A stretch of DNA of 29,473 bases from a virus, in IMG/VR virus record IMGVR_UViG_3300032265_000589, positions 1 through 29,473 of that record; one strand, given 5' to 3'. Position numbers and translations under genes: made by a program. Within the stretch, counting starts at the first letter, position 1. Each line of letters begins with the position of its first letter. Under the pieces are notes generated by a model. It was not told the origin of the DNA, made no database searches, and saw nothing but the letters and a program-made list of their open reading frames with translations. Below, in pieces: positions 575 to 28,534 of the stretch.

Positions 575-1153
575 ATGCCTTACTACCCGCTCAATAAGAT
601 AACCACTAATCTGTTCACCTCTGGTGATGAGTATGTACTCTCTACGACTAATAAGAGCTACAAAGGATACTATTGTAGTACTTATGATGGTAAGTACTAC
701 ACCAACAAAACAGTTACCCCGGACTCAATAGAGCTAATAAAGATATCTAGCACCAAAAATCCTACGTTAAGCCTAGCCACCATGGCTTATGATAATTTAA
801 TACCCCTTAAAACCAATACACCCGTGACACCCGTACAATACACTTCTGTACCTACACAACAAGACTACAAGAATGGATACTACTACAGGTACTTTTCCAA
901 AAGAGTAAATGGAGATTTATCCACCATCACTGAGATAGGTAAAGATAATTATGATGCTTTAGCCTCAAACCCACTATATAATACTGTGCAAATACAATGG
1001 ATGCTCACAGGACCACTAGAAGACCAACACATGTCGGGTATGCTGGTATTAGGAGTAATAAATAGAAACCTGAAATCTATAAACCAGGCATCAAGGCAGA
1101 TGCTTTATTTAAACCAGTATCTCACCAATCCTACTCAGTACTACAAAAAATAA
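575..1153 (+). CDS. Hypothetical protein, probable virion module
   Basis: A 192-residue protein starting at an ATG 10 bases after the preceding stop. It is very rich in Tyr, Thr, Ser and Asn (many YY, YK and YT pairs near residues 29-45 and 95-110), soluble, with no signal peptide or membrane helix. The style resembles small virion or tail proteins of environmental Bacteroidetes phages, but I recognise no domain. It is the last gene before a promoter-bearing gap, after which the replication genes begin, so it likely closes the structural operon. Function unknown. Confidence 0.6.
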   Translation: MPYYPLNKITTNLFTSGDEYVLSTTNKSYKGYYCSTYDGKYYTNKTVTPDSIELIKISSTKNPTLSLATMAYDNLIPLKTNTPVTPVQYTSVPTQQDYKNGYYYRYFSKRVNGDLSTITEIGKDNYDALASNPLYNTVQIQWMLTGPLEDQHMSGMLVLGVINRNLKSINQASRQMLYLNQYLTNPTQYYKK

Positions 1154-1382: not shown

Positions 1383-2705
1383 TTGTTTTACATAATAGAG
1401 ACACCCGAGCAACTAAAAAAGTTCTCCGAATATAATTTGGAGCATTCTTTTATTGAGCCGATAGTATACAACGATAACTATCACCCCATCTTAACGGATG
1501 TGTGCGCCTATTATATTAAACCTGCCCAATCAAGAACTGGTTTTATATTGCCTGTAAATCATTCCGAAGCATTATCACTAGACCATGAGTCTATTTTATC
1601 CTTATTTAAGCATAAGGTGCTCAAGGCTTACGTTTATGACGCAAAGAGGGTTATGTATCATTTAAACCTAGAAATGCCCTTAATTTGCCTTAAAACGGCT
1701 AAATTCCTAGAGACAGGGGAAATACTAGATTTACAATCTTACAATCAACCAATTCAAACCTGGTTGTATTCACAGAATGGTTCAAATCCCTATATCAATA
1801 GGGTAGTACCTATATCTAAATTAGCAGAGAAGTATGACAACTTTATCATCGACCAAAAGTCATTACTGAATAGCAATGTTTATTCCAAGAAGTACTTCTC
1901 ATTCTACAATGAAGCTTTAAACACTGTCTTGTATAACATAGAGAGAGAGGGTATAAAGGTTAAGGGGTTTGATGTTCCTAACCTAAACTATATGTACGAT
2001 GGTGAAAAGGTTTACACACATTACAATCAGTATACTAGTACGGGCCGGCCATCAAACACTTTTAATAATGTGAACTTTGGTGCCTTAAACAAAACTGACG
2101 GAACCAGAGAAATGGTTGTACCTAACAGCACTTTCTTACTAGAGTTTGATTACAGCAGCTATCACCCTAGAATATTGGCTAATTTAGTAGGATACGACTT
2201 CAATGGTGAGGATATACACACCCACCTAGGAAAGATGTATTTTGATGTGGATCATATCACAGAAGAACAACATGAGGAAAGTAAAAAAATAACTTTTCAA
2301 ATTTTATACAATGATTCAAATAAATACACTAACTTTGCATTCTTTAACAAGGTTCACGAATTAAGGAATACCCTATGGGCACAGTACAACAAAAATGGTT
2401 ATATAAGGTCGGTGATAACCGGCAGGCCTATCAAGGGTATAAAAAGCAAGACACAGGTGTTACCATATCTGTTGCAGGCATACGAAACAGACAGGAACAT
2501 AAGTGTAATGAAGGACTTACAGAAGTTATTAGAGGGTTATAGAAGCAAATTGATTCTGTACACTTACGATTCTTTCTTAATAGATTATAACAAAAAAGAC
2601 GGTAAAGATTTGATGAACAAAATAAAAGAAATAACAGACCAGGATGGTTTTGTGACCCAGGCTAAATATGGGGATGATTATAACACTATGCAAATAATTA
2701 ATTAA
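1383..2705 (+). CDS. Divergent family-A DNA polymerase, short form
   Basis: A 440-residue protein whose C-terminal half has the family-A palm and fingers in order. The template-strand motif is TSTGRPSNTFNNVNFGAL (about 218-235). Motif A is DYSSYHPR at 256-263 (canonical DYSQIELR), a degenerate motif B is KKITFQILYND near 301-311, and motif C is TYDS at 394-397 (canonical VHDE). The two catalytic Asp (D256, D396) are kept, but the motif A Glu and the His and Glu of motif C are replaced. The first 150 residues resemble the shape of a 3'-5' exonuclease domain without its DxE motif, so proofreading is probably lost. The start is TTG at 1383: no ATG lies in frame between the upstream stop and this point, and the protein begins plausibly with FYIIETPEQL. 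A second, more canonical family-A polymerase lies at 15986. Repair, primer-extension or lesion-bypass roles are possible; none is shown. Confidence 0.8.
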   Translation: MFYIIETPEQLKKFSEYNLEHSFIEPIVYNDNYHPILTDVCAYYIKPAQSRTGFILPVNHSEALSLDHESILSLFKHKVLKAYVYDAKRVMYHLNLEMPLICLKTAKFLETGEILDLQSYNQPIQTWLYSQNGSNPYINRVVPISKLAEKYDNFIIDQKSLLNSNVYSKKYFSFYNEALNTVLYNIEREGIKVKGFDVPNLNYMYDGEKVYTHYNQYTSTGRPSNTFNNVNFGALNKTDGTREMVVPNSTFLLEFDYSSYHPRILANLVGYDFNGEDIHTHLGKMYFDVDHITEEQHEESKKITFQILYNDSNKYTNFAFFNKVHELRNTLWAQYNKNGYIRSVITGRPIKGIKSKTQVLPYLLQAYETDRNISVMKDLQKLLEGYRSKLILYTYDSFLIDYNKKDGKDLMNKIKEITDQDGFVTQAKYGDDYNTMQIIN

Positions 2706-2706
2706 A

Positions 2707-3186
2707 ATGACAGACGAGACAAATTTTAACAGGATTGACAGTAATCCCCCAGCACAGAAGAGTAAAATTGCCAACAAGATTTTCACAACCTTTTGCAAGA
2801 AAGAACAGCTTCAGGATATGATAGACCAAATAAAGTCTACGTATACTATTGCTAACAATAAGATACTGGTATTTACTTCCCCTCAGACAGAAGAGTACAT
2901 ACTCACATACAACGTAGAACCTGGAAATCTGTTAGAAGTGAAGGTGATAGGTAATACAGTACTACTACATCGAAACAAAGACTCTAAAACCCTTTTCTCT
3001 ATCAACGCAATAAATTTATTGAACCAAATGGAGAACGGTACGACAGAGGGCTACTACGAAGTTCCTTGGGAAAAATACCAGAAGAGTATTTTGCTTACTA
3101 GGAATAAAGTATTTACTCAGTTAAAGACTGAATTGTATACCATAATAGATACAACACCTAATACTGAAAACAATTTCAACATCTAG
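2707..3186 (+). CDS. Hypothetical protein between polymerase and SSB genes
   Basis: A 159-residue soluble protein, ATG one base after the polymerase stop, so translation is likely coupled. It starts with a polar region (FNRIDSNPPAQKSK), then a mixed alpha/beta body with beta-like runs (NKILVFTSP, LLEVKVIGNTVLLHR) and no Cys cluster or membrane helix. I do not recognise it. In T4-like phages the genes next to the SSB encode late-transcription or helicase-loading factors; position alone is not enough to assign either here. Confidence 0.65.
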   Translation: MTDETNFNRIDSNPPAQKSKIANKIFTTFCKKEQLQDMIDQIKSTYTIANNKILVFTSPQTEEYILTYNVEPGNLLEVKVIGNTVLLHRNKDSKTLFSINAINLLNQMENGTTEGYYEVPWEKYQKSILLTRNKVFTQLKTELYTIIDTTPNTENNFNI

Positions 3187-3240: not shown

Positions 3241-4272
3241 ATGGCGTTAAGCATCCGCGAGCTAGCAGCACAAAGACTGAAAAAAGCTCAAACAGGTAGT
3301 TATGAAAAGACAGACTACAGTAAAATCAAGTTTAAACCTGAAACTGACAAGGAGTATCAGATTAGGATTTTACCGAACAAGTACTCTGAGTATCCAATCC
3401 ATGAATTGGAAGTACACAAGTACGACACTTTTAAGAAGGCTCCTATCTGCCTTACATCATTTGGAGAGACAGATCCAATTATTAAGTTCACTAAAAGTTT
3501 ATGGGAAGAGGTTAACAAAGCAAAAGCATCTAATGACCCTAACCTAGCTACAATCACTAAAGAGAATGGAGCTATTGCCAAGGCCTTAAGACCCAACAAA
3601 CGTTTCTTTGTACAGGTAATTGTAAGAGGAGATGAAGCAAAAGGACCATTGATTTGGGAATTTGGTACCACAGTTGCTCAACAATTAGACGGATTGTTAG
3701 CTACAGAAGATTATGAGACTATGGCTGACATCCAAGATGGTGTAGACCTTACCATAAAAGGATTTGAGGCTTCTATGCAGAACGGCGGTAAGTATACTGA
3801 CGTGACTATCACTCCAAAGAGAAAGAGCACACCATTGTCTACTGATGCTGAAACTGTTGAAAAGTGGCTTGAAGAGCAAAAGAATCCAGCAGAAATACTC
3901 TACAAGGCAATGTCTTATGATGAGTTGAAGCAAATGTTAAGAGAATACCTAGAGCCAGGTGATGAGGATGAAGATGAAGCTCCTGTTAAGAAAGCTGCAC
4001 CACTTCAACCTGCAAAAGCTCCTGTTAAAAGAGCCCCAGAACCTATTGAAGAAGAGGATGAGGAAGAAGAGGAGGAAGAAACACCACCACCACCTCCTCC
4101 TGCTAAAAAGAAACCTACTGTTAAAAAGACAGTGGTACTTGAACCAGAAGAAGATGAGGAAGAGGAAGATGAATTATCTCACATAATCCCTAAGGGAAAG
4201 TCTTCAACAAAAACCTCAGCCCCTACTTCTAATAAGAAGTCTTGGAATGATGTATTTGATGAAGAAGATTAA
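3241..4272 (+). CDS. gp32-like single-strand DNA-binding protein
   Basis: A 343-residue protein coating ssDNA during replication and recombination. The N-terminus (SIRELAAQRLKKAQ, residues 4-17) corresponds to the basic cooperativity segment of T4 gp32 (STAELAAQMAKL). The core includes RFFVQVIVRGDEAKGPLIWE, matching the gp32 strand region YWANIYVVKDP...VFKYRFG. Only one Cys (in APICLTSFGE) remains where gp32 has a Cys/His zinc site, so the zinc subdomain seems lost. The last 100 residues are a long disordered tail of acidic runs, a PPPPPPAKKKP patch and Lys-rich segments, ending in the acidic tip WNDVFDEED. Acidic tips in SSBs recruit partner enzymes. A 54-base gap precedes it and a large hairpin follows, so it may have its own expression control. 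Confidence 0.88.
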   Translation: MALSIRELAAQRLKKAQTGSYEKTDYSKIKFKPETDKEYQIRILPNKYSEYPIHELEVHKYDTFKKAPICLTSFGETDPIIKFTKSLWEEVNKAKASNDPNLATITKENGAIAKALRPNKRFFVQVIVRGDEAKGPLIWEFGTTVAQQLDGLLATEDYETMADIQDGVDLTIKGFEASMQNGGKYTDVTITPKRKSTPLSTDAETVEKWLEEQKNPAEILYKAMSYDELKQMLREYLEPGDEDEDEAPVKKAAPLQPAKAPVKRAPEPIEEEDEEEEEEETPPPPPPAKKKPTVKKTVVLEPEEDEEEEDELSHIIPKGKSSTKTSAPTSNKKSWNDVFDEED

Positions 4273-4855: not shown

Positions 4856-4859
4856 GGTT

Positions 4860-4933
4860 CATAATATAGCTCAATTGGTTAGAGCCCCTGTATTGTAACA
4901 GGGAGACTTGGGTTCGAATCCCTACTATGACCA
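4860..4933 (+). tRNA. tRNA-Thr(UGU), non-canonical
   Basis: A clear D arm (GCTC 4869-4872, loop AATTGGTTA, GAGC 4882-4885), an anticodon arm CCCTG/CAGGG (4886-4890 and 4899-4903) around TATTGTAA, and a T loop TTCGAAT (4913-4919). The U before TGT (4894-4896) gives anticodon UGU, reading ACA threonine. The acceptor CATAATA/TACTATG has one A-C mismatch and is followed by an encoded ACCA (4930-4933). Oddities: the anticodon loop is 8 bases, or 6 if T4891-A4898 pair, instead of 7; the T stem is only GGG/CCC; and pairing extends 5' of the acceptor (GGT 4856-4858). It may be degenerate or specialised. Confidence 0.7.
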
Positions 4934-6504: not shown

Positions 6505-7620
6505 ATGGCAAAAAGCGTTAAAACAGCAAAAGAAACACCCACTGCTAACATAAAAGCAGTAGTTAACCAAGCGGTGAATGGTAAGTTCAACAGTGAGTTA
6601 TTAAACAAATTCAAGAAGTCACACAACCTCTCAAACAACTCTGTGTTTAAACCGCAGGAATGGATTCCGGTTAGCCCAGCTTTCTCTAAAGCAGTAGGAT
6701 TACCTGGATTACCTAAAGGGCACATAACGCTTTTAATAGGTCTGAGTGATACAGGTAAGAGTACCACATTGTTTGAAGCGGCAGCAGGTGCCCAGAAGCA
6801 AGGCGATTTAGTAGTTTTCATTATTAATGAAATGAAATTCTCTTGGGACAGAGTTCGTAAACTAGGTTTTCAAGTAGACGAGACTGTTGATGAAGAGACA
6901 GGGGAGGTGATGCACACTGGAGACTTCATTTATGCTGATAGATTAATATGTCCAACCATAGAAACAACCGGGGCATTCATTCTTGACATACTTAAAGAGC
7001 AATCTAACGGAAAGCTTCCTTATAATATTACTTTCTGTATTGACTCAATGGGCAGTCTACCTTGTGATATGTCTGTAAGTATGGGTAAAAATGATAGTAG
7101 ATGGAATAGCAACGCATCAAATCTTACTTGGGGATCGTTTGTCAATCACAATTTTCCTATGTCTAGAAAATCTACATCTCCTTACACTAATACTTTAGTA
7201 GTAGTTAACAAGCAAGGTATTCAACTTCCTACATCCCCTGTAGATAAACCCAAAAGAATTGCTAAGGGTGGATCTACATTGTATTTCGATGCCAGTTTGG
7301 CTATTGCTTATGGTAATATATCAAATAGCGGGGTTTCAAATATAGATGCAGTGAAAAACACTAAATCTATTACCTTTGCTAAGAGGACTAAAGTAGCTGT
7401 GATGAAGAATCACATCACTAACTCTACAGCAAGTTCTAAAATAATCATGACCGATTATGGATTCATAGAGGATACACCTGCAGCAATTAACAAATATAAA
7501 GAAGAACACAAACATGAGTGGCTTTCAATATTAGGTGATACTAATTTTAAAGTAGTAGAAGAAGCTGAAGTAGAGGAAGGTAATGTAACTGCATACCCTG
7601 ACTTACAAGAAGAAGATTAA
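6505..7620 (+). CDS. UvsX/RecA-like recombinase
   Basis: A 371-residue RecA-fold ATPase likely to form filaments on SSB-coated ssDNA and catalyse strand exchange for recombination-dependent replication. Walker A is GLSDTGKST at about 79-87, Walker B is TFCIDSMGSL around 176-185 (Asp 180), and a conserved strand VVVNKQG follows. The Walker A of T4 UvsX and bacterial RecA differs in detail, but length, order of motifs and neighbours (gp32-like SSB, DnaB-type helicase, 5'-nuclease) fit UvsX. The acidic tail (VEEAEVEEG...LQEED) resembles that of RecA proteins. An unusual Lys-rich N-terminal 50 residues may contact DNA or SSB. RadA-like or gp41-like ATPases are less likely because the helicase is encoded separately at 10458. 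Confidence 0.85.
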   Translation: MAKSVKTAKETPTANIKAVVNQAVNGKFNSELLNKFKKSHNLSNNSVFKPQEWIPVSPAFSKAVGLPGLPKGHITLLIGLSDTGKSTTLFEAAAGAQKQGDLVVFIINEMKFSWDRVRKLGFQVDETVDEETGEVMHTGDFIYADRLICPTIETTGAFILDILKEQSNGKLPYNITFCIDSMGSLPCDMSVSMGKNDSRWNSNASNLTWGSFVNHNFPMSRKSTSPYTNTLVVVNKQGIQLPTSPVDKPKRIAKGGSTLYFDASLAIAYGNISNSGVSNIDAVKNTKSITFAKRTKVAVMKNHITNSTASSKIIMTDYGFIEDTPAAINKYKEEHKHEWLSILGDTNFKVVEEAEVEEGNVTAYPDLQEED

Positions 7621-7630
7621 ACAAACAATT

Positions 7631-8668
7631 ATGAACAAATCATCTAGGTTATTATCTCTTTTCGATAAAATTGACACCGAAGAACCTCAACCATTACACC
7701 TTTCTGCTAAGAACCGTGTACTTTTAGTTGATGGTATGAACTGCTTCATTCGAAGCTTCAGCTCAAAAGGTAACAAATTCAACAGCATTGGTCATCACGT
7801 ATCAGGACTCACAGGCTTCTTACAGAGCCTAGGGTCTGCTGTTCGGGAGATTAGGCCTACTAAAATCATCATAGCCTGGGATGGGGAGAAGGGATCACAA
7901 TCCAGGAAGTACCTCTGTAGAGATTATAAGGCAAACAGAGATAATACCTCTATCATTAAGAAAGGAATATTTGAATCTAAATCAGAGGAGGAAAATAGTA
8001 AGCAAGCTCAACTACTTAGGTTAGTTGACTACCTTAATTGTCTACCTGTCACTATGATTGTAAAGTCAAACTTAGAGATGGATGACGTCGCAGCCATACT
8101 AGTAAAGTATCTGGAAGATAAACCTGATACTCACACTTACATAATGAGCACAGACCAGGACTTTTATCAGTTGGTAACAGATAAGGTGACAGTCTACAAG
8201 CCGAAGGAGAAACTATTCATCACTGAGCGGGAGGTATTAGCCAAGTATAACATACACCCAGTTAACTTCTCTGTATTCAAGAGTTTGAATGGTGATACAT
8301 CAGATAATCTATCGGGCATCAATGGATTAGGTGAAAAGACCATTCCTAAGCTGTTTCCGGCACTTTCTACCTCTAAGAAGGTAACTTTACAGGAGATATA
8401 CCAAACGTGCCAGGATAAGCCTTCTAATTCAGTTTTATACGATAGGGTACTGTACTGCAAGTCTACTCTTGAGACCATGTTTAAAATCATGGACTTACAC
8501 GATGTAAATGTAAGCGATGAAGATAAGGAAGAAGTTATTTCAGAGTTTGAATCAAAAATAAATTTGTTTGATAAGAAAGGCTTCCTATATTTGCACTCCG
8601 AGGATAGATTGTATGATACCATCCCTAACATAGGCAAGTGGTTAACAATTTTTGACAATATAAAATAG
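7631..8668 (+). CDS. 5'-3' exonuclease / flap endonuclease (RNase H-type)
   Basis: A 345-residue member of the FEN/5'-nuclease family, expected to remove RNA primers and 5' flaps from lagging-strand fragments, like T4 RNase H or the 5'-nuclease domain of Pol I. The acidic metal ligands appear in order: LLVDGMN (Asp 34), AWDGEKGSQSRK (Asp 84), LEMDDVA (Glu 149, Asp 151, Asp 152), STDQDF (Asp 175, Asp 177) and GDTSDNLSG (Asp 222, Asp 225). A helix-three-turn-helix GINGLGEKT (229-237) follows. An N-terminal extension of about 25 residues precedes the first motif. The gene sits 10 bases after the recombinase gene. Its 3' end contains a promoter match for the next gene. Confidence 0.92.
   Translation: MNKSSRLLSLFDKIDTEEPQPLHLSAKNRVLLVDGMNCFIRSFSSKGNKFNSIGHHVSGLTGFLQSLGSAVREIRPTKIIIAWDGEKGSQSRKYLCRDYKANRDNTSIIKKGIFESKSEEENSKQAQLLRLVDYLNCLPVTMIVKSNLEMDDVAAILVKYLEDKPDTHTYIMSTDQDFYQLVTDKVTVYKPKEKLFITEREVLAKYNIHPVNFSVFKSLNGDTSDNLSGINGLGEKTIPKLFPALSTSKKVTLQEIYQTCQDKPSNSVLYDRVLYCKSTLETMFKIMDLHDVNVSDEDKEEVISEFESKINLFDKKGFLYLHSEDRLYDTIPNIGKWLTIFDNIK
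8563..8594 (+). promoter_or_regulatory. Internal Bacteroidetes-type promoter
   Basis: TTTG at 8563-8566, a 19-base spacer, then TATATTTGC at 8586-8594, identical in its 9-mer to the promoters at 1178 and 14588. It lies inside the 3' end of the 5'-nuclease gene, about 80 bases before the RNA ligase ATG at 8675, so it could boost the ligase, dNMP kinase and helicase genes. Confidence 0.6.
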
Positions 8669-8674
8669 AGATTT

Positions 8675-9736
8675 ATGAAGTTAGCGTCCGTAGAAAGGAT
8701 AACAGCACTGACTCCTATAGAAGGGGCAGATTCAATTGTTACAGCCCAATTACTTGGTTGGAATATAGTAGTCAAGAAAGACGAATTCCAAGTAGGGCAA
8801 CTAGTGAGTTACATTCAAATTGACACTGTAACCCCAGAGAAAGAAGAGTTCGAATTCTTAAGACCAAGAAATTTTAGAGTTCGAAGTATAAAACTCCGTG
8901 GTCAAATTAGCCAAGGGTTAATAGTTCCCCTTTCTGAAGGTAAATGGAAAGAAGGGGATGATCTTACAGAAGTATTAGGTATCAAAAAGTACTCAAAAGA
9001 TAAGGAAGTGTCAGAGTCTAGGCCTAAAATGCCAAAGGTATGGTATAAAAAGCTGTGGTATAAGCTAAAATACAACGTATTAGTTAAGCTTTTTCCGTGG
9101 GCTAAGGTTGTCAACAGAAATGGTTTTCCTAAAGATGTGGTATCTATCACAGACGAAGAGCGTATACAAAATATACCCAGAGTATTAGACACTTATAAAG
9201 GTAAAATGTTTGTGGCTGCTGAGAAGTTAGATGGTAGTAGCATCACCATAATTCATGAGAAGAAATGGAATAAGAGTAAATATCGTTTATGTAGTAGGAG
9301 ATTTGAATTATTCAATACTGACAATGAATGGTATCGTGTATTTGTAGATACAAACTTTAAGCAGTATATAGACTTACTTGCTAAGCACTTTAACACTAAC
9401 AACGTAGTTGTACAAGGGGAGTATATAGGAAAACCTCAAGGGAATAAATATAGGCTAACTCAAAATGAAATAAGGCTGTTTAACATACAAATAAATGGCA
9501 AACGTCTTACACAGGATACGTTTTATCAAATATGTACTCAGTATAACATACCTTGCTGCCCTCTCTTAGGTCAATTTGAATTGAATCATACTTTACCAGA
9601 ACTACTTAAATATGCAGAAGGTAAGTCAAAGCTAAATAGTAGTACAGAAAGAGAAGGTGTAGTACTGAGGTGTGTAGAAGACAACCTAAGCTTTAAAGTG
9701 ATTAGTAACAAGTTTTTGTTAAAAAATGATGAATAG
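8675..9736 (+). CDS. Rnl5-type (DraRnl-like) RNA ligase
   Basis: A 353-residue ATP-dependent ligase that would seal nicks in RNA, plausibly repairing tRNAs or other RNAs cut by host defence nucleases. The first 105 residues form the N-terminal OB-like domain typical of Deinococcus DraRnl (GWNIVVKKDEFQVGQLVSYI, then RSIKLRGQISQGLIVPL). Adenylyltransferase motifs follow: motif I EKLDGSS with lysine 184, SRRFEL (Ia), VVQGEYIG (III), EREGVVLR (IV) and FKVISNKFLLKN (V) at the C-terminus. All key residues are present. It overlaps the dNMP kinase gene by 11 bases. T4 Rnl1 and Rnl2 lack this N-terminal domain, so the Rnl5 assignment is the best fit. Confidence 0.88.
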   Translation: MKLASVERITALTPIEGADSIVTAQLLGWNIVVKKDEFQVGQLVSYIQIDTVTPEKEEFEFLRPRNFRVRSIKLRGQISQGLIVPLSEGKWKEGDDLTEVLGIKKYSKDKEVSESRPKMPKVWYKKLWYKLKYNVLVKLFPWAKVVNRNGFPKDVVSITDEERIQNIPRVLDTYKGKMFVAAEKLDGSSITIIHEKKWNKSKYRLCSRRFELFNTDNEWYRVFVDTNFKQYIDLLAKHFNTNNVVVQGEYIGKPQGNKYRLTQNEIRLFNIQINGKRLTQDTFYQICTQYNIPCCPLLGQFELNHTLPELLKYAEGKSKLNSSTEREGVVLRCVEDNLSFKVISNKFLLKNDE

Positions 9737-10403: not shown

Positions 10404-10457
10404 CATTACACATTCAGTTTTAGTATTTTTAATCTTTAAAATTTATGTACATTGACA

Positions 10458-11771
10458 ATGAAAAATTTGTCCTTATACGGATATAATTTCCGTATTAAGG
10501 TCCTCTACAGTTTAATTACGTCTAAGAAGTTTCTACAAGACGTGTCTGACATTATAGACTCAGAACATTTTGAGTCTACCCCTCAAAGATGGATAATAGA
10601 CAAAACAATTGTTTATTTCCGTCAGTACAATACTTATCCAACCATGGAGTTCTTTGCCACAGAGATAAAGAAACTGACCGATAAGGTATTGGGTATAGCA
10701 ATAAAAGAAGAGTTGAAAAAGTCTTATGAGTGTGAGCACGATGACATAGACTGGACTCAAGATGAGTTCCATAAATTCTGTGCTATTCAAAAGGTTAAAT
10801 CAGCACTACTAGATAGCGTAGATATGCTAGATGGTGGTTCTGACACAGAGGATATCGCAACTCTAGTAACTAAGTCTGTTGCAGCCGGTAAACCTAAAGA
10901 TGCTGTGCACATTTACGAGAAAGATGTAGAGTCTAGGTACAAAGAGGATAATCGTAAACCTGTACCTTTCCCATGGCCTACCTGGACAAAGCTAACAGAT
11001 GGTGGAATGGGTGGAGGAGATTTAGTAGTACCGGTATCAGGACCAAAGGGAGGTAAATCTTGGATATGTACAGCGTGTGGAGGGTATGCAGCTAAGCTAG
11101 GTCTGAATGTTATGCATTATAGCCTAGAGCTTTCTGCAGACTACGTTGGTAAAAGATATGATGCTTATTTCACAGGTATACACGTATCCGAATTGAAACA
11201 TAACAAAGCATCTATAGCTAAAAGTGTTGAGAACTTAAAAGGACACATCCGTATATTTGAATTTCCACCTGGGCGTACTAACCTGTCTCACATAGAGAAC
11301 CATTTAAGAAAGATGAGACTCCAAGAGGACTTCGTACCTGATTTAATCATAATAGATTACCTAGAGAAATTAGGTAACACCAAGAATCGTAAGGATAAGA
11401 ATGAAGATGCATCAGATGTATTCACAGAAGCTAAAGGATTGGCCAAGGTTCTGAATGTACCTATCATATCTCCTGCACAGGCTAACAGATCTGCAGAAGG
11501 GTTAGATATAATCAAAGGACAACACCTAGCCGGCACCTATGAGAAGTTCATGATTGCAGATATAATCTTCACAGTATCCAAAAAGACCAATGTATTTTAT
11601 ATGATGGGTAATAGATATGGTGATGATGATGTAGCATACCAATCTTCATTCGATAGAAAGAACGGCCACATAGTAATAGATACAGAGGAGTACGATGGAG
11701 AGTCTCAAGTAGATTTGAGTAAACCCGACACAAAAGAGAGAATGATTCAGAGGTTTAGGAAACTAGAGTAA
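10458..11771 (+). CDS. Replicative DNA helicase, DnaB/gp41 type
   Basis: A 437-residue hexameric helicase that would unwind the fork 5' to 3'. The N-terminal part (to about residue 150) is helical, like the DnaB N domain. The RecA-like motor has Walker A SGPKGGKSW around 194-202 and Walker B DLIIIDYLEKLG near 295-306. The sensor-like segment NVPIISPAQANRSAEG follows (DnaB family: PVI.LSQLNR), then an arginine-containing C-terminal motif (FDRKNGHIVID). I place the start at ATG 10458; an in-frame TTG two codons upstream is less likely. A 54-base A/T-rich gap precedes the gene. No primase is visible in the window. Confidence 0.88.
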   Translation: MKNLSLYGYNFRIKVLYSLITSKKFLQDVSDIIDSEHFESTPQRWIIDKTIVYFRQYNTYPTMEFFATEIKKLTDKVLGIAIKEELKKSYECEHDDIDWTQDEFHKFCAIQKVKSALLDSVDMLDGGSDTEDIATLVTKSVAAGKPKDAVHIYEKDVESRYKEDNRKPVPFPWPTWTKLTDGGMGGGDLVVPVSGPKGGKSWICTACGGYAAKLGLNVMHYSLELSADYVGKRYDAYFTGIHVSELKHNKASIAKSVENLKGHIRIFEFPPGRTNLSHIENHLRKMRLQEDFVPDLIIIDYLEKLGNTKNRKDKNEDASDVFTEAKGLAKVLNVPIISPAQANRSAEGLDIIKGQHLAGTYEKFMIADIIFTVSKKTNVFYMMGNRYGDDDVAYQSSFDRKNGHIVIDTEEYDGESQVDLSKPDTKERMIQRFRKLE

Positions 11772-15798: not shown

Positions 15799-15989
15799 AA
15801 GAAATAACACCAGTACAATGTAGGAGATTTCTCCTAGAATCCGAAGATGAAGTGATTCATTTAGTAGAATTTAGTAGAGGGTATATAGGCTACTTCTATG
15901 ATAATGCCTACCAAACAGAGCCCTGGAATACAGGTATGCAAATACTGACCAAAGAAGAATTTGAACAAAAATTTAATGTCAAGTTATGA
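15795..15989 (+). CDS. Small acidic hypothetical protein
   Basis: A 64-residue protein linked by four-base overlaps to both neighbours (15795 with the preceding stop, 15986 with the polymerase start), so it is translated in a chain with them. It looks beta-rich (VIHLVEFSRGYIGYFYDNAY) with a short C-terminal helix (TKEEFEQKFNVKL). The overlap arrangement supports it being real. I recognise no family. Confidence 0.6.
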   Translation: MKEITPVQCRRFLLESEDEVIHLVEFSRGYIGYFYDNAYQTEPWNTGMQILTKEEFEQKFNVKL

Positions 15990-17938
15990 TTTTAGACGAT
16001 GTATACATTTTTGATATAGAAACAAACGGCCTTCTCAAAGAGGCCGATAGAATACACGTACTGAGTGTAGGTAAGGTAGTCAATGGGGAACTGAAGGTGA
16101 GGTCTATTACCGACTATGATCAGATGAAGGATTTCTTTATGGATGAAACTATCACTAAGATAGGACATAACATAATCCAGTATGATATACCTGTAGTTGA
16201 AAAGATACTTGGTATAAACCCACCTAAGGAAAATCTGATAGACACCTTACCGGTTTCTTGGTACCTGTTCCCAGAATTATTAAAGCATGGTCTTGAATCC
16301 TATGGGGAGATGTTCGGTGTACCTAAACCTCACATAGATGATTGGGAGAATCAAACACTTGAAGAGTATAAGCACAGGTGTCAAGAAGACGTTAAGATAA
16401 ATCATCTGCTATGGCAGGAACAATTATCTTATCTGAGGGAGATGTATGATAATGATGATGAGATAATACACTGCGTTGACTATTTGGCATTCAAGATGCA
16501 TTGTCTGAGAGACCAGGAGATAGTAGGAGTAAGGTTTGATGTGGAGTGGTGTGAAGCGGCTATATCAAAATTGAACTCAATCATAGAACCTAAGCTAAGG
16601 CAATTAGAATCCGTGATGCCAAAGGTAGAGGTTACCAAGAAGGTAAAGAGACCTAAGGAATCATCTCTAACAAAGAAAGGTGGATTAGAGTCTGTGGCCG
16701 GGCAGAAGTGGAGGCTACTCTGTGAAGAATATGGTGTACCTTTTGACTACGAAGAAGAGTTTGAAATAGTCTCTGGGTACAAAGAGCCTAATGCAAATTC
16801 AGATAGTCAAATAAAGAACTTCTTATTCTCATTAGGGTGGAACCCTAGAACTTTCAATACCACTAAGAACAAAGAAAAAGGTACACAAAAAGAAGTACCA
16901 CAGGTATATGATAAGAAAAAGGGTAGCGGAGCTGTGTGTGACTCAGTAATAGAACTCTATGAGAAAGTACCAGAATTGGAGCTCTTAGAGGGGTTAGGTG
17001 TATTAGGCCATAGAAAATCTCTCCTAGAGGGGATGTTAGAAGCCGCTATTGATACCGGAGACGGTAACATCAGAGTTTACGGTACCGCAAGGGATTATAC
17101 CAATACATTAAGACTTAAGCATACCAAGCCATTGGTAAACTTACCTAAAGTAGGTACACCTTACGGAGAAGAGATAAGAGGATGTCTCATCAATGATGAA
17201 GGTTATGTCCTGTGTGGATCTGACTTGAATAACATTGAAAGTGTTACCCGGAACCACTATCTTTTCCCGTATGACCCTGATTACGTTAGAACCATGGATG
17301 ATCCCCTATATGATAGCCATATAGATATTGCGGTAGTAGGTAACATGATTACCAAAGAGGAAGGAGAACTCTATGTTAAAATTGATAAGGGAATCATAGA
17401 GAAACCAACAGAGGAGCAAATGGTTATATTCAAAAAGATAAAACCTATAAGGTCTAAGGCTAAGAATACAAACTTCGGTGCCACTTATGGGTCAGGTGCA
17501 GCTACTCTGGCAAAGACAGGTAAAATGCCTTTATCAGAAGCTAAAAAACTTCTAGAGATATACTGGCAACGTAACTGGGCTATCAGGGCATTTGCAGAAG
17601 ATTGTTCAGTAAAAGTAGTCCAAGGACAGAAATGGATAAAGAATCCTGTATCTAAGATTTGGATTTATCTCAGGTCAGAGAAAGATAGGTTCTCATCAGT
17701 TAACCAAAGTTCTGCTGTATTTGTATTTGATATGGTAATAAAGAATCTTAGAAAGTTAGGAGTAATTATTCAATATCAAGTCCATGATGAGGTATTGTTT
17801 AGTGTACCTATAGGTAAGGAAAAAGAGACCAAAAATCTAATACAAAAGGTGATGGATATGGTTAACGACGAATTGAAGCTAGATGTGACAATAAAAATGA
17901 CACCTCAATTTGGTAATAGATACTCTGATTGTCACTAG
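15986..17938 (+). CDS. T7-like family-A DNA polymerase with 3'-5' exonuclease
   Basis: A 650-residue enzyme, probably the main replicative polymerase. The proofreading domain has Exo I FDIETNGL (Asp 10, Glu 12), Exo II GHNIIQYD (Asp 66) and an Exo III-like HRCQEDV (Asp 134). The Tyr usual four residues before this Asp is Arg, but a His at 129 gives H-x4-D, as in DEDDh nucleases. The polymerase domain has motif A GSDLNNIES (Asp 412, Glu 417) and motif B RSKAKNTNFGATYG (Arg 488, Lys 492, Phe 496, Tyr 500), matching T7 R518/K522/Y526/Y530 spacing. Motif C is QVHDEV (His 599, Asp 600, Glu 601). Phe at the position of T7 Tyr 526 is the variant that favours dNTP over ddNTP. No 5'-nuclease domain is fused; that activity is at 7631. 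Confidence 0.93.
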   Translation: MILDDVYIFDIETNGLLKEADRIHVLSVGKVVNGELKVRSITDYDQMKDFFMDETITKIGHNIIQYDIPVVEKILGINPPKENLIDTLPVSWYLFPELLKHGLESYGEMFGVPKPHIDDWENQTLEEYKHRCQEDVKINHLLWQEQLSYLREMYDNDDEIIHCVDYLAFKMHCLRDQEIVGVRFDVEWCEAAISKLNSIIEPKLRQLESVMPKVEVTKKVKRPKESSLTKKGGLESVAGQKWRLLCEEYGVPFDYEEEFEIVSGYKEPNANSDSQIKNFLFSLGWNPRTFNTTKNKEKGTQKEVPQVYDKKKGSGAVCDSVIELYEKVPELELLEGLGVLGHRKSLLEGMLEAAIDTGDGNIRVYGTARDYTNTLRLKHTKPLVNLPKVGTPYGEEIRGCLINDEGYVLCGSDLNNIESVTRNHYLFPYDPDYVRTMDDPLYDSHIDIAVVGNMITKEEGELYVKIDKGIIEKPTEEQMVIFKKIKPIRSKAKNTNFGATYGSGAATLAKTGKMPLSEAKKLLEIYWQRNWAIRAFAEDCSVKVVQGQKWIKNPVSKIWIYLRSEKDRFSSVNQSSAVFVFDMVIKNLRKLGVIIQYQVHDEVLFSVPIGKEKETKNLIQKVMDMVNDELKLDVTIKMTPQFGNRYSDCH

Positions 17939-18769: not shown

Positions 18770-20452
18770 ATGAGCGTAACAATCACATCAGGACAAGAGC
18801 TTAAAGAAAAGCTCCTTAAAGGTATCAACCTATCAGCAGACACAGTCACTGCAACATTAGGTAGTTCAGGAAGACCCGTTGCCATCCGGGACCAGGAAGG
18901 TACAATCCGTATCACAAAAGATGGATACAGTGTAGCTAATGCAATAACCTCATTTGAGGATCCTACAGAGGATATGGCATTACAACTGTTGAAAGCGGCA
19001 GCTAAGAAGTCAGTAGACGAAGCTGGTGATGGTACAACCACCACTACTTTACTAGTGCAATCGATAGTAAACGAATGTTTGGATATAACATCCAAGGAAA
19101 CTAACGTAGTTGAAATCCAAAAAGGTATAGCAGCATCTGTAAGTGCAGTAGTAACTAACCTTAAAGAACAAGCTATGGAGATAACTACCGAAGACCAAAT
19201 CTACAATGTAGCTAAGTTGTCTGCAAACGGAGATGAGAATATCGCTAAGTTGATCTCATTAGCCATAGACAAATCTGGAAGAGACGGCAGTGTATCTATC
19301 GAAGAATCTAAATACGCAGAAGACTCTTTGGAAGAGGTGGAAGGTATGGTGTTAAGCAAAGGTCTACTACACCATCACTTTGTTACTGACGAAGCTAAGA
19401 ATCATTCTTTATTACTGAATCCTTGCATCTTGTTAGTTGATGAGGTAATCACAAAAGCAGAGTCAATAGTTAACTTCATGCAGTATGCAGCAGAGAAAGA
19501 ACGCCCGTTGTTACTTATCGCAGAAGGGGTAGAAGGTGCAGCTATCTCTGTGTTGATTGTAAATCACCTAAGAGGTACCTGTAAAGCAGCAGTAATCAAA
19601 TCTCCAGACTTCGGTGATCGTAAGAAAGCAATCTTGGAAGATATTGCCACTATCACCGGTGCAACAGTTCTTAGTAAAGAAAAAGGACACAACCTTGAGA
19701 AGCTAAAGGATTTAGGTCAGTACTTAGGTTCAGCTAGGTCTGTTACTTCTACAAAGGATTCCACCACTATCATTGATGGTAAGGGAGACAAAGAGCAAAT
19801 TGAAGAAAGACTTCTTGCTATCAAGGAACAAATCGACAATGCTAAATCAGCATTTGAAAGAGAGAACCTCCAAGAAAGATTAGGTAAGATTATTGGTGGA
19901 GTAGTCATCATCAACGTAGGTGGTAAGTCTGAGGTAGAAATGAAAGAACGTAGAGACAGAGTAGAAGATGCCTTATTTGCCACTAAAGCTGCTATTGCAG
20001 AGGGTGTAGTCCCAGGTGGAGGATTAGCTCTAATCAATACTGAAAGTGCCCTAGATGAGCTTGTATTAGCCAACAAAGACCAAGAGATAGGTAAGAGTGT
20101 AATCAGAAGGGTTCTATATGCACCTTTCAAGAAGATTCTTAAGAATGCAGGTATCGAGAACCACTATGAAATTCTGTCTGAGATTAAAGCTAATAAGGAT
20201 AAGTCTTACATGATAGAGCAAGCTAAGACTACATCGCCTAACCTTACAGAAGTAGAATCTCATAAAACTTCACTTTGGCAAGGATACAATGTAAGAACAG
20301 GTGAATATGGTAACGTACAGGAGATGGGAATACTAGACCCTGTAAAGGTAACCAGAGTAGCTCTTCAGAATGCATCTAGCACTGCCGGTATCTTAATGAC
20401 AGTGGCCGCTGGGGTTAACGAAAGTAAAGTAGAAACACAACAAGAAGGATAG
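18770..20452 (+). CDS. groEL: GroEL-like chaperonin
   Basis: A 560-residue group I chaperonin, near the usual length. The equatorial ATP site is intact: GDGTTTTT at 86-93 with Asp 87, and VPGGGLAL near 414-421. The hydrolytic Asp is in EDALFATKAA (Asp 400, E. coli Asp 398). Numbering of the apical domain matches E. coli exactly from 191 to 265, so the substrate-binding patch can be compared residue by residue. Tyr 199, Ser 201, Pro 202 and Tyr 203 become Leu, His, His and His (segment GLLHHHF), Phe 204 is kept, Leu 234 and Leu 237 become Val and Met, and Val 263/264 become Ile/Val. The C-terminal GGM repeat is missing and is replaced by VETQQEG. A full phage GroEL is uncommon; a few jumbo phages are known to carry one. 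The gene ends with a hairpin terminator. Confidence 0.95.
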   Translation: MSVTITSGQELKEKLLKGINLSADTVTATLGSSGRPVAIRDQEGTIRITKDGYSVANAITSFEDPTEDMALQLLKAAAKKSVDEAGDGTTTTTLLVQSIVNECLDITSKETNVVEIQKGIAASVSAVVTNLKEQAMEITTEDQIYNVAKLSANGDENIAKLISLAIDKSGRDGSVSIEESKYAEDSLEEVEGMVLSKGLLHHHFVTDEAKNHSLLLNPCILLVDEVITKAESIVNFMQYAAEKERPLLLIAEGVEGAAISVLIVNHLRGTCKAAVIKSPDFGDRKKAILEDIATITGATVLSKEKGHNLEKLKDLGQYLGSARSVTSTKDSTTIIDGKGDKEQIEERLLAIKEQIDNAKSAFERENLQERLGKIIGGVVIINVGGKSEVEMKERRDRVEDALFATKAAIAEGVVPGGGLALINTESALDELVLANKDQEIGKSVIRRVLYAPFKKILKNAGIENHYEILSEIKANKDKSYMIEQAKTTSPNLTEVESHKTSLWQGYNVRTGEYGNVQEMGILDPVKVTRVALQNASSTAGILMTVAAGVNESKVETQQEG

Positions 20453-25316: not shown

Positions 25317-25769
25317 ATGATAACAGAATACAATTTAGATTTCCTGTTAGAAAATACAGGATGTTATGAGAAAAGTAAAGTAGAAAGTCTCTTTCCAAAA
25401 GAAAGAGAAGTAGTTAGCTATGAAGATATACTACAGAGTAGCATTTCTCTTAAGGATAAGTACTGGTTCTTTTGTAAAAGAGTTTTTACAGATAGTCAAA
25501 ACAAACATCTTGCTATTAAAATAACACAAGTTGTTCTTCCTATCTGTGAGGAGAAGTTCCCCGAAGACGGTAGACCACGTAAAGCAATAGAAGCTGCTAG
25601 ATTATACCTAGCAGGTGAGATAGTTAAGGAGGAGCTAGAGGCTGCTGCTAGGGCTGCTGCTGATGCTGCTAGTGTTGCTTGTTGGGCTGCTGCTAGGGCT
25701 GCTACTAATTTAAAATACACAAAAGAGTTGGAAGAATTATTAATAAACTTTATAGAAGAAAACAAATAA
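25317..25769 (+). CDS. Ala-repeat protein, possibly Imm5-like
   Basis: A 150-residue protein with an alpha-helical N-terminal half, then FPEDGRPRKAIEAARLYLAG (79-98) and an alanine-rich repeat region (EAAARAAADAASVACWAAAR, 104-123). The RPRKAIEAARxYLxGE segment followed by Ala-rich helices is, from memory, the layout of the Imm5-like family of predicted immunity proteins, also widespread in phages without an assigned job. No toxin gene is adjacent. The repeat is encoded by GCT-rich DNA with an exact 18-base direct duplication, so its length may vary between relatives. Confidence 0.6.
   Translation: MITEYNLDFLLENTGCYEKSKVESLFPKEREVVSYEDILQSSISLKDKYWFFCKRVFTDSQNKHLAIKITQVVLPICEEKFPEDGRPRKAIEAARLYLAGEIVKEELEAAARAAADAASVACWAAARAATNLKYTKELEELLINFIEENK
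25641..25703 (+). repeat. GCT-rich direct repeat
   Basis: GCTGCTGCTAGGGCTGCT occurs exactly at 25641-25658 and 25686-25703, 45 bases (15 codons) apart, with further GCTGCT between. It encodes the AAARAA blocks of the Ala-rich protein. Confidence 0.85.
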
Positions 25770-26313: not shown

Positions 26314-26478
26314 ATGAATAAAGCTGAGAGTACTAGATGTTACCTTAATTATCTTGATAAGAATAGAGGTTGGTTCAATTCGACTACATTTAAACCTCAA
26401 TGTATTATAAACGGTAAAGTAGTGAACCTATTAACTATCGAGGAGTTTGAATTAACAAATAAAGAATATGAACAATAA
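26314..26478 (+). CDS. Small hypothetical protein
   Basis: A 54-residue ORF starting at ATG 26314 (leader AAAGAAATATG), overlapping the thyA start by 11 bases. The sequence (CYLNYLDKNRGWFNSTTFKP, then a short acidic helix LTIEEFELTNKEYEQ) has no recognisable domain. The compact spacing on both sides supports translation. Function unknown. Confidence 0.55.
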   Translation: MNKAESTRCYLNYLDKNRGWFNSTTFKPQCIINGKVVNLLTIEEFELTNKEYEQ

Positions 26479-27133
26479 ACTAGATAAGCAGTACACAGAC
26501 CTCCTTCAAGACATACTTGATAATGGTGTAAAAAAAACAGATAGAACAGGTACAGGTACACTGTCAGTATTTAGTAGAGAAATTAGACATAAAATGTCTG
26601 ATGGATTTCCGTTACTGACTACAAAGAAGATGTACTTTAAGGGTGTTGTAACTGAATTATTATGGTTCTTACAAGGACGTACTGATTTACGTTATTTACT
26701 TGAGAATGATTGTAATATTTGGGATGGGGACGCTTATAAGGCTTATGAAAAGGCTTATGAAAAGGACCCCTCCATAGGACTATCTTTACTTGTTGCAAGA
26801 GTAGACGGTAAACATACATACCAAAAACCAACAAAAGAAATGTTTATTGCTATGATTGAGGCTGATGATGAGTTTTCAAGGACATGGGGTGATTTAGGTC
26901 CGATTTACGGGGCACAATGGAGAAGTTGGAAGTTCACAGATAAGTTTACAAATGGAGAACAGATTGCTTATGTAAATGGAAAGGTAGACCAGATTGCAAA
27001 TTTAATCAAAGACCTTAAAACAAATCCAGATAGTAGACGATTAATGGTAAATGCTTGGAATCCATCTGATTTACCAATCACTGATAATAGAAGTGATGAT
27101 GAATTGTATAATGACTATCTGAAACAGATTTAG
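26468..27133 (+). CDS. thyA: Thymidylate synthase, N-terminal part of split gene
   Basis: The first 221 residues of a thymidylate synthase, the folate-dependent enzyme making dTMP from dUMP. Visible family motifs are DRTGTGTLSVF (phosphate-binding Arg 26), GFPLLTTKK, ELLWFLQGRTDLRYL, IWDG, GDLGPIYGAQWRSW and NPDSRRLMVNAWNPSDL (Arg 190, Arg 191). The catalytic Cys is not here; it lies in the second part at 27914. Two insertions relative to the E. coli enzyme are seen: about 50 residues after IWDG, including a tandem AYEKAYEK, and a polar extension after NPSDL ending at DDELYNDYLKQI and TAG. If translated alone it cannot be active; it needs the other half in trans or RNA joining. Confidence 0.9.
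   Translation: MNNKLDKQYTDLLQDILDNGVKKTDRTGTGTLSVFSREIRHKMSDGFPLLTTKKMYFKGVVTELLWFLQGRTDLRYLLENDCNIWDGDAYKAYEKAYEKDPSIGLSLLVARVDGKHTYQKPTKEMFIAMIEADDEFSRTWGDLGPIYGAQWRSWKFTDKFTNGEQIAYVNGKVDQIANLIKDLKTNPDSRRLMVNAWNPSDLPITDNRSDDELYNDYLKQI
26741..26764 (+). repeat. Tandem 12-base repeat inside thyA
   Basis: GCTTATGAAAAG is repeated exactly in tandem (26741-26752, 26753-26764), with a partial third unit GCTTATAAG just before. It encodes AYEKAYEK in a lineage-specific insertion of the enzyme. Confidence 0.85.
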
Positions 27134-27165
27134 TTATTTTACTCAACTTTATTGATATTTATAAT

Positions 27166-27174
27166 AAAGGAGGT
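27166..27174 (+). promoter_or_regulatory. Strong Shine-Dalgarno sequence for homing endonuclease
   Basis: AAAGGAGGT, nine bases before the ATG at 27184. It is a near-perfect ribosome-binding site, unlike the A/T-rich leaders without Shine-Dalgarno of the other genes here. Confidence 0.75.
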
Positions 27175-27183
27175 AGTGTCATT

Positions 27184-27921
27184 ATGATAATTTATAAAAC
27201 AACTAATAATGTTAACGGTAAAATTTACATTGGAAAAGATAAAAAAAATAATCCAAAATATTTAGGTTCTGGTAAAATACTTAAACAAGCAATTACTAAG
27301 TATGGTACAGAATCGTTTACAAAGGAAATTATCGAGGAGTGTGAAGATGAAAAGATTTGGTTAGAAAGAGAAAAGTATTGGATTGAATATTTTAACGCAA
27401 TTAAATTAGGGTATAACATTGCACTTGGTGGAAGTGGTGGTGACACGATTTCTAATCACCCAAACAGGGATGAGATTAGAAAAAAACATAGTGAAAAAAT
27501 GAAAGACCCAAAAATTAATAAGAATAAAGAAAAGGGTAGAAAACTTATTATTAAGAAGCGAGATGACCCTAATTGGGTTAACCCTAGACTCGGTAAGGAA
27601 AGTCCCTTAATTGGTAGACCTAACGGACGAAAGGGTATATCTAACCCAGTACATTCTGAATGGATGAAAGAAAATAATCCAATGAAGGGTAAAACACATT
27701 CCGATGAAATAAAAAAGTTTCTAAGAGAGATAAACCAAAAACCTAAAAAAGAGGAACATAAAAACAAAATTAGTGAATCAGCACCAAATAATAAAAAATG
27801 TATTATTGAAGGGGCTGAGTACAGGAGTGTAGCATATGCCAGTAAAGTCTTAGGTATTTCAGAAAACACTGTTAGAGGTAGGGTTAAGAATAAAAATTTT
27901 AAAAATTGGAATTATGAATGA
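27184..27921 (+). CDS. GIY-YIG homing endonuclease
   Basis: A 245-residue homing endonuclease that would cut thyA alleles lacking the insertion and so spread itself. The catalytic domain opens with IIYKTTNNVNGKIYIGKD (GIY-YIG signature) and has the conserved Glu in WLEREKYWIEYF (about 60-71). The middle has NUMOD3-type repeats (NPRLGKESPLIGRPNG; NPMKGKTHSDEIKKFLREIN). The C-terminus (CIIEGAEYRSVAYASKVLGI, continuing SENTVRGRVKN) is a NUMOD1/IENR1-type DNA-binding helix-turn-helix. This is the domain order of T4 I-TevI, which sits in the T4 thymidylate synthase intron. Here the gene fills nearly the whole 786-base insertion, and its stop (TGA 27919-27921) lies inside the second thyA part. It is A/T-richer than the flanking thyA, consistent with transfer. 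Confidence 0.93.
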   Translation: MIIYKTTNNVNGKIYIGKDKKNNPKYLGSGKILKQAITKYGTESFTKEIIEECEDEKIWLEREKYWIEYFNAIKLGYNIALGGSGGDTISNHPNRDEIRKKHSEKMKDPKINKNKEKGRKLIIKKRDDPNWVNPRLGKESPLIGRPNGRKGISNPVHSEWMKENNPMKGKTHSDEIKKFLREINQKPKKEEHKNKISESAPNNKKCIIEGAEYRSVAYASKVLGISENTVRGRVKNKNFKNWNYE

Positions 27922-28534
27922 GAAGTTAACAAAAGAAGAGTTTTTGAAAAAATTAAAAACTGATGAGGATTTTAATAGTAAATTCGGCAGAAAAAATATT
28001 ACTGAAGGTAAACAAGTACTTCCCCCATGCCACTATGGATTTCAATGTTATACTAGAGAATTAAATTTGGAGGAAAGAAGAGAGATTGCTAGAAATAAAT
28101 TAAATCCTAGAGAATGGGCAGATGTTATTAAATTAGCTCATTACAATGAGACTTATGATAAGTACAATATTCCAACCAGAGCATTATCATTGAAATGGAA
28201 TCAACGTTCAGTTGATACGCCATTAGGTTTGCCATTTAATATAGCATCTTATGGTCTATTGTTAGAGATACTTGCAAAAGAAGTTAACATGGTACCAGAT
28301 GAATTGATTGGTAGTCTTGGTGATTGTCATATTTACCTAAACCAAATTGAAGGTGTTAAAGAACAGATTGGAAGAGAAGGGTATATGTTACCAACACTTA
28401 AGCACATGAAAACTGATGCTTTCTATAAGTCATTATCTGAAGATCAATCACTGTACACACATTTAGATAATACGGACTTTCAAATTGAGAATTATCAATC
28501 ACACCCATCAATTAAATTCCCTTTATCAAATTAA
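27914..28534 (+). CDS. thyA: Thymidylate synthase, C-terminal part of split gene
   Basis: A 206-residue continuation of thymidylate synthase carrying the nucleophile Cys 39 in LPPCHYGFQ. It also holds the dUMP-binding WNQRSVDTPLGLPFNIASYG (Arg 98, Asp 101, Asn 109), GDCHIYLNQI (His 139, Tyr 141), and the family C-terminus HPSIKFPLSN. The first 36 residues (NEKLTKEEFLKKLKTDEDFN...) are polar and helical, filling the same surface loop as the tail of the first half. Its ATG at 27914 overlaps the endonuclease stop by eight bases, so it could be translated by termination-reinitiation. Codon AAT (27917) follows in frame from ATT (27128-27130) if bases 27131-27916 are removed, giving an uninterrupted LKQI-NEKL. 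Confidence 0.9.
   Translation: MNEKLTKEEFLKKLKTDEDFNSKFGRKNITEGKQVLPPCHYGFQCYTRELNLEERREIARNKLNPREWADVIKLAHYNETYDKYNIPTRALSLKWNQRSVDTPLGLPFNIASYGLLLEILAKEVNMVPDELIGSLGDCHIYLNQIEGVKEQIGREGYMLPTLKHMKTDAFYKSLSEDQSLYTHLDNTDFQIENYQSHPSIKFPLSN

Follow-up and report, generated by a model that had tools for sequence, protein, structure and literature searches.

Divergent family-A polymerases in phages

A divergent family-A DNA polymerase, divPolA1, was named from 14 phages, among them the Flavobacterium phage vB_FspM_immuto, further called immuto (Yutin et al. 2024, PMC11348598). According to the text of that paper, divPolA1 is accompanied by a regular DNA polymerase of family A, B, or C, near which the genes for GroEL/GroES are located, and conserved replication genes lie downstream. 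Palm residues are kept in divPolA1, the thumb is truncated, and the exonuclease is inactivated; replacement of the catalytic exonuclease Asp is reported for two other members of the group. The text names no specific function for divPolA1 beyond involvement in replication and leaves open that it is the replicase, a fixed replication context being seen for divPolA1 alone. The divPolA2 of barbaviruses, treated in the same text, is likewise a divergent PolA that is encoded in addition to a regular polymerase and lacks an ordinary thumb and an ordinary exonuclease; by its description, it differs in its N-terminal domain, which is unrelated, and in its neighbourhoods, which vary. In the literature searched, the name divPolA1 occurs only in this paper and its preprint.

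The window, that is, the whole stretch of 29,473 nucleotides analysed here (IMG/VR virus record IMGVR_UViG_3300032265_000589), comes from an aquatic T4-like phage and encodes a further divPolA1 member, a kind of protein thus already described in 2024. The gene (1383..2705, plus strand, as are all genes and motifs below whose coordinates are joined by two dots) starts with TTG and specifies a thumb-reduced, predicted exonuclease-dead family-A DNA polymerase of 440 aa. The protein is orthologous to the published group, has a truncated thumb, is followed by replication genes, and coexists with an additional regular DNA polymerase near GroEL. It shares with immuto divPolA1 the neighbours, the kept palm residues, the truncated thumb, a regular polymerase beside chaperonin genes, and probably the loss of exonuclease activity; the two differ only by sequence divergence, apart from the TTG start of the window member, the His and Asn in its motif B, and an RNA-ligase gene in its cassette, which is also found in two close relatives. 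Relative to the text of PMC11348598, the figures of which may show some of these points, the near-invariant His at the steric gate, the counts over 129 sequences, and a test anchored on the 5' nuclease are new. The same is true of the small protein with a matching distribution, of the check for primases, and of two carriers, the Microcystis phage and the 484-kb phage.

Identity of the gene

The open reading frame is matched by PF00476 DNA_pol_A (E 2e-11, 43.9 bits against a curated cut-off of 34.3) and by the PHROG 17 DNA polymerase profile (E 2e-10). Among 45 diverse divPolA1 relatives, 34 are matched by PF00476 at E<=0.01. Both profiles also match the T7-like polymerase at 15986, in agreement with the earlier note, which had described the present protein as a second family-A polymerase beside that enzyme. 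Strong purifying selection acts on divPolA1, with a dN/dS of ~0.1 between close relatives (0.046/0.47; 0.057/0.63). It is close to certain that the reading frame encodes a family-A polymerase and an orthologue of the divPolA1 group.

A chance reading frame or pseudogene at 1383-2705 was ruled out by the PF00476 match, the dN/dS of ~0.1, and the 129 intact relatives. The two window polymerases were also considered as halves of one enzyme, an idea that was rejected because motifs A to C are complete in both. All significant matches in Pfam, PHROG, and further profile searches were to family A, and no primase fold or profile was detected in divPolA1; a match to PriX (E 0.48) is noise.

Fold, exonuclease-like domain, and thumb

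AlphaFold2 was supplied with an alignment of 43 sequences, from which three phage-record sequences were left out, and produced a model of divPolA1 with a mean pLDDT of 93.2 and a pTM of 0.90. The best PDB matches in Foldseek were Klenow (E 1e-19), M. smegmatis Pol I, and Pol theta, all with E 1e-19 to 1e-18. VIA-align gave Z 28.4 to M. smegmatis Pol I and Z 28 to Bst, with an rmsd of 3.2-3.4 Å over ~410 of the 440 residues and starting at residue 1; residues 1-437 of the model align to Bst 300-876. A fold outside the family-A palm was thus looked for with AlphaFold2, Foldseek, and VIA, and the result was a family-A fold. The overall arrangement of an exonuclease-like domain, palm, and fingers is that of Bst, Klenow, and M. 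smegmatis Pol I, from which divPolA1 differs in its shorter fingers, its 5' nuclease being encoded by a separate gene, its thumb, and the substitutions in motifs A and C discussed below.

As the VIA alignment runs from residue 1, the N-terminal part (1383..1718, residues 1-112) is taken to be an exonuclease-like domain, predicted inactive, an assignment made from the fold alignment and the order of strands and helices. Among candidate exonuclease acids, the Asp424-like position is freely variable, and N30/D31 occur often, though not invariantly; these positions come from alignment and not from residue-by-residue structural placement. The exonuclease active site looks lost, and the absence of exonuclease acids noted earlier is in line with what structure-guided analysis has shown for the family (PMC11348598). 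The exonuclease domain of Bst is likewise inactive.

Where Pol I has its thumb, only a short link is present (1950..2003, residues 190-207). The interval from Glu187 ('IERxG') to Tyr214 ('TxYN') spans 26 residues in the window protein and 14-34 in the 129 relatives, whereas the same interval in E. coli Pol I (E541 to Y659) is 117 residues long. The model contains no helix of 4 or more residues between residues 190 and 259. Judged by this spacing and by the predicted secondary structure, the thumb is almost absent, in agreement with the published 'truncated thumb'. Although divPolA1 thus lacks a thumb of ordinary family-A size, it is not excluded from the family: since profile, fold, and catalytic residues fit family A, the small thumb is best regarded as a trait of a divergent subfamily. 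The loss of the thumb is the most striking feature of the protein and was overlooked in the earlier note.

Active-site motifs

Residues were mapped onto E. coli Pol I by motif positions and alignments to Klenow, and conservation was counted in an alignment of 129 full-length divPolA1 sequences. Motif A, DYSSYHPR (2148..2171, residues 256-263), aligns to DYSQIELR of Klenow, with D256 as the catalytic Asp and H261 at the steric-gate position of Glu710. Motif B, the O helix, reads H297-x3-K301-x3-F305-x3-Y309-N310 (2271..2312). In motif C, Y395-D396-S397 (2565..2573; YTYDS is residues 393-397) stand at His881-Asp882-Glu883 of E. coli Pol I. Motifs A and C are as first reported, and both catalytic Asp, D256 and D396, are not only present but invariant (129/129 each).

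The same holds for K301 (129/129), while F305 and Y309 are each conserved in 128/129; the three are the equivalents of Lys758, Phe762, and Tyr766. R222, at the position of Klenow R668, Q365, and E368 are found in all 129 sequences. His is present at the Glu710 position in 128/129, Tyr395 is invariant (129/129), and residue 397 is Ser in 82 and Ala in 47 of the 129. The description of motif B as degenerate applies to residue 297, at the Arg754 position (Tyr in 109/129, His in the window protein), and to the Gly after the motif-B Tyr, which is Asn310 in the window protein; most divPolA1 have Tyr and Gly at these two places. It does not apply to K301, F305, and Y309. Likewise, the statement that key motif residues are lacking is correct in that residues are altered, but the altered residues are fixed across the divPolA1 family. 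On the evidence of the alignment, His in place of the motif-A Glu and Tyr-Asp-Ser/Ala as motif C are hallmarks of the family and not decay.

A scaffold without chemistry, in which a polymerase-like fold would serve in primer-end binding or in loading of helicase or SSB, could be read into the altered motifs A and C and the missing thumb. The residues that two-metal catalysis and dNTP binding require are, however, kept without or almost without exception in the 129 sequences, and selection is purifying, which makes such a scaffold very improbable.

Relatives and distribution

Among 50,697 annotated phage records, divPolA1 relatives were found in only three kinds of phage, represented by six records. 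Four of these are of immuto (gp001, E 3e-72, 34% identical over 96%); the other carriers are Microcystis phage Mel-JY01 and an uncultured phage of 484 kb (LR756508, 31%). A relative is encoded on at least 580 stretches in IMG/VR. The word unusual, used earlier for two PolA in one phage, thus holds for cultured phages but not in nature, and the divPolA1 family was already published in 2024. The cultured relatives infect aquatic hosts. Queuosine genes are common to immuto and the Far-T4 contigs (Roux et al. 2015, PMC4360716), a hint that these phages may be members of the Far-T4 group.

A scan of bacterial and archaeal genomes yielded only seven contigs, all in MAGs, the longer ones of which bear the same phage cassette. 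Nothing therefore points to a cellular family, and a cellular origin of divPolA1 is not favoured. Further matches are labelled human-gut 'Bacteriophage sp.', Roseobacter, and Microbacterium; four sequences read from the first two groups are ordinary PolA with the motif-A Glu and thus non-members. A relation to the polymerases of Rhodothermus phage RM378 was looked for in the first 100 kb of that genome, without a match.

Conserved replication cassette

The cassette in which divPolA1 resides has at its left edge a conserved protein of 192 aa (575..1153), possibly of baseplate type and without a Pfam match. Where a contig reaches that far, a homologue of this protein almost always lies close upstream of divPolA1. 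Directly downstream of divPolA1 is a small conserved protein of 159 aa (2707..3186), with a homologue in 32/32 loci with enough sequence. Small protein and full-length divPolA1 occur in exactly the same six of the 50,697 phage records, which makes the former a candidate partner. An AlphaFold2 model of this protein (pLDDT 83) had no reliable fold match in the PDB, the best Z being 5.5. Further downstream are a gp32-like SSB with an acidic tail (3241..4272; PF08804, E 3e-9), a UvsX/RecA-type recombinase (6505..7620; phrog_97 UvsX-like, E 2e-17; PF00154, E 4e-9), a 5'-3' exonuclease/flap nuclease of the Pol I N-terminal type (7631..8668), and a DnaB/gp41-type replicative helicase (10452..11771; phrog_19, E 3e-64). 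The nuclease is matched by TIGR00593, DNA polymerase I, in the 5'-nuclease part of that profile (E 1.6e-35), and by PRK14976, 5'-3' exonuclease (E 5e-25).

The order divPolA1, small protein, SSB, UvsX/RecA, 5' nuclease, DnaB was observed in 31 of the 32 loci that were collected by divPolA1 and have at least 7.5 kb of downstream sequence each; the remaining locus has the same order without DnaB. The proximity of the SSB gene to the second polymerase, pointed out before, is thus kept in relatives, and so is that of the recombinase gene. As these loci had been gathered by divPolA1 itself, a search was also run with the 5' nuclease as bait, and divPolA1 was present in 37/37 loci with enough upstream sequence, these loci being the nuclease relatives nearest to the window lineage.

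An RNA ligase of the DRB0094/PHA02142 type is encoded between the 5' nuclease and DnaB (8675-9736) and was found in the cassette of the window and of just two close relatives (L120, L121). Because of this confinement it was rejected as a core cassette partner for ribonucleotide patches.

With an SSB and a UvsX-type recombinase in the cassette at every complete locus, divPolA1 might act in recombination, extending the invading 3' end in UvsX/RecA D-loops on gp32-type SSB and so starting recombination-dependent replication, which the main replicase would then continue. The 5' nuclease and helicase, however, lie just as near, and D-loop extension normally needs a grip on the DNA and strand displacement, whereas the thumb of divPolA1 is missing. 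In T4, moreover, D-loop extension is left to the ordinary replicase. Such a role is considered unlikely, though with a chance that is not trivial.

Lesion bypass is another role that the features of the enzyme bring to mind: an exonuclease-dead, loosely gripping divPolA1 would let surface-water phages copy DNA across lesions, those from UV included, as the aquatic hosts of the cultured relatives, the lack of proofreading, the small fingers, and the changed O-helix Arg, steric-gate, and motif-C residues would allow. Its nucleotide-binding Lys, Phe, and Tyr in the O helix are fixed and not loosened, however, and a repair gene that the phage can dispense with should have a patchy distribution, whereas divPolA1 is present in all 37 testable loci. 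Translesion synthesis is therefore quite unlikely.

Regular polymerases and primases in the same phages

The regular T7-like family-A polymerase of the window, the putative replicase (15986..17938, 650 aa; PF00476, E 7e-20; phrog_17, E 7e-98), is located upstream of chaperonin genes, with GroEL at 18770-20452 (E 1e-52), a layout that is the same in immuto. It shares the family-A palm with divPolA1 but differs in its intact exonuclease motif I (FDIETNG), its full thumb-sized region, the motif-A Glu, and the VHDE motif C; of the full thumb and active exonuclease of a T7-like replicative PolA, divPolA1 lacks the former, and its candidate residues for the latter are not conserved. A divPolA1 profile did not match this polymerase at E<=10, and derivation of divPolA1 from the phage's own replicase thus has no support.

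The earlier reading of divPolA1 as an enzyme with a role other than main replication is supported. A separate regular polymerase was present in all nine examined divPolA1 records of at least 140 kb. It belongs to family A in four (immuto, G003, G007, G009) and to family B in five (LR756508, Mel-JY01, G010, G019, G020), which argues that the function of divPolA1 is independent of the type of replicase. The equal occurrence beside both families leaves the proposed role in modified-base synthesis unsupported; immuto carries 7-deazaguanine genes, for which no tie to divPolA1 was found. Some of the family-B polymerase frames are unusually short (~556-579 aa; G010:C1:86123-86770, G019:C1:66680-68590, G020:C1:27629-29100), and in G019 and G020 a second family-B match lies in a frame of ~301-313 aa, as if the polymerase were split in two genes.

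The conserved context of divPolA1, set against regular polymerases that are swapped between families A and B (and C), could be taken to mean that the roles are reversed, with divPolA1 as the true replicase and the 'regular' polymerases as accessory enzymes. It is hardly credible that an enzyme without proofreading and almost without a thumb would hold this position beside one with FDIETNG and a thumb-sized region.

A Toprim_2 protein of primase size (~313-333 aa) was found in 9/9 divPolA1 records of at least 140 kb, some of the matches being weak (Mel-JY01, E 0.001; G003, E 1e-4); the one of immuto is annotated as DnaG primase. Priming is thus not vacant in these phages, and the priming role proposed in the earlier note is weakened. 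Such a role would have divPolA1, freed of thumb and Glu gate, start chains or accept ribonucleotides as the primase beside the DnaB helicase of its cassette. The missing thumb, the change of Glu710 to His, and the crystallisation of the Bst gate mutant E658A with rCTP (PDB 4dqr) are consistent with it; the Toprim_2 proteins and the still bulky His at the gate speak against it and make it improbable.

Proposed role

Computation established that divPolA1 belongs to family A and has its fold, keeps the catalytic set invariant, is under purifying selection, has lost most of its thumb, lies in a fixed cassette, and coexists with a separate replicase and a primase. The reading tentatively preferred here, with a chance somewhat short of even, is that divPolA1 is a distributive gap-filling polymerase partnered with the 5' nuclease, a 'split Pol I'. 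The active site would have been re-tuned by the change of the steric gate from Glu710 to His and of motif C from His-Asp-Glu to Tyr-Asp-Ser/Ala, and the exonuclease domain would serve as a scaffold only. The enzyme would perform two-metal nucleotidyl transfer on short substrates and, as an active, low-processivity, non-proofreading polymerase, make short stretches of DNA. To judge from the function of the thumb in Klenow and T7 polymerase, the loss of thumb and proofreading would suit such short, distributive synthesis. On SSB-coated lagging strands, the Pol I-type 5' nuclease would remove primers and flaps, and divPolA1 would fill the resulting gaps, so that the two proteins together would amount to a Pol I divided between two genes. 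The missing grip on the DNA may be supplied by the small downstream protein or the SSB tail.

Several observations are consistent with gap filling. The family-A fold extends over the whole chain, D256, R222, K301, F305, Y309, Q365, and D396 are kept in 128-129 of the 129 sequences, and dN/dS is in the purifying range (~0.1). The adjacent nuclease is of the Pol I 5'-nuclease type in a cassette of fixed order, and a regular replicase of family A or B is present in all nine large records. Gap filling is not singled out by synteny from D-loop extension or lesion bypass, however, because recombinase and helicase are also in the cassette, and the linkage to the nuclease is not independent of that to the other cassette genes. 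In T4 and T7, gaps are filled by the single polymerase of the phage, so that the need for a dedicated gap-filling enzyme is not obvious. Without a partner, furthermore, a Klenow fold that lacks the thumb may hold primer-template too weakly to act.

The last point is taken up in a bolder proposal, in which divPolA1 would work only in complex with the 159-aa protein as a thumb in trans, and the pair would, on SSB-coated DNA, start chains or lay ribonucleotide-containing patches that are later trimmed by the 5' nuclease. The fixed Glu to His change together with the loss of the thumb would then mean that divPolA1 is no ordinary DNA polymerase. This is a long shot; if true, family A would comprise three kinds of enzyme, namely DNA polymerases, T7-type RNA polymerases, and divPolA1.

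As a split Pol I or otherwise, divPolA1 represents an abundant, almost uncultured enzyme family in a core replication cassette, and its fold shows the extent to which Pol I can be cut down. A thumb-less, exonuclease-dead, His-gate enzyme could be useful to enzyme engineers if it accepts unusual substrates. As immuto and its Flavobacterium host have been isolated, the function of divPolA1 is open to experiment.

Other features of the window

The thymidylate synthase gene thyA is split (26468-28534): the first reading frame covers profile positions 1-139 and the one at 27914 covers 140-265. Between the two parts lies a reading frame for a GIY-YIG/I-TevI-like homing endonuclease (27184-27921), an arrangement reminiscent of the td intron of T4, although a search of Rfam gave no intron match. 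A single tRNA gene is present at 4859-4932 (Rfam, E 3e-4), the anticodon of which was not named by ARAGORN. An Ala-rich protein of 150 aa encoded at 25317-25769 resembles the Imm5-like putative immunity protein (PF21805, E 3e-8), which is unusual in a phage replication region.
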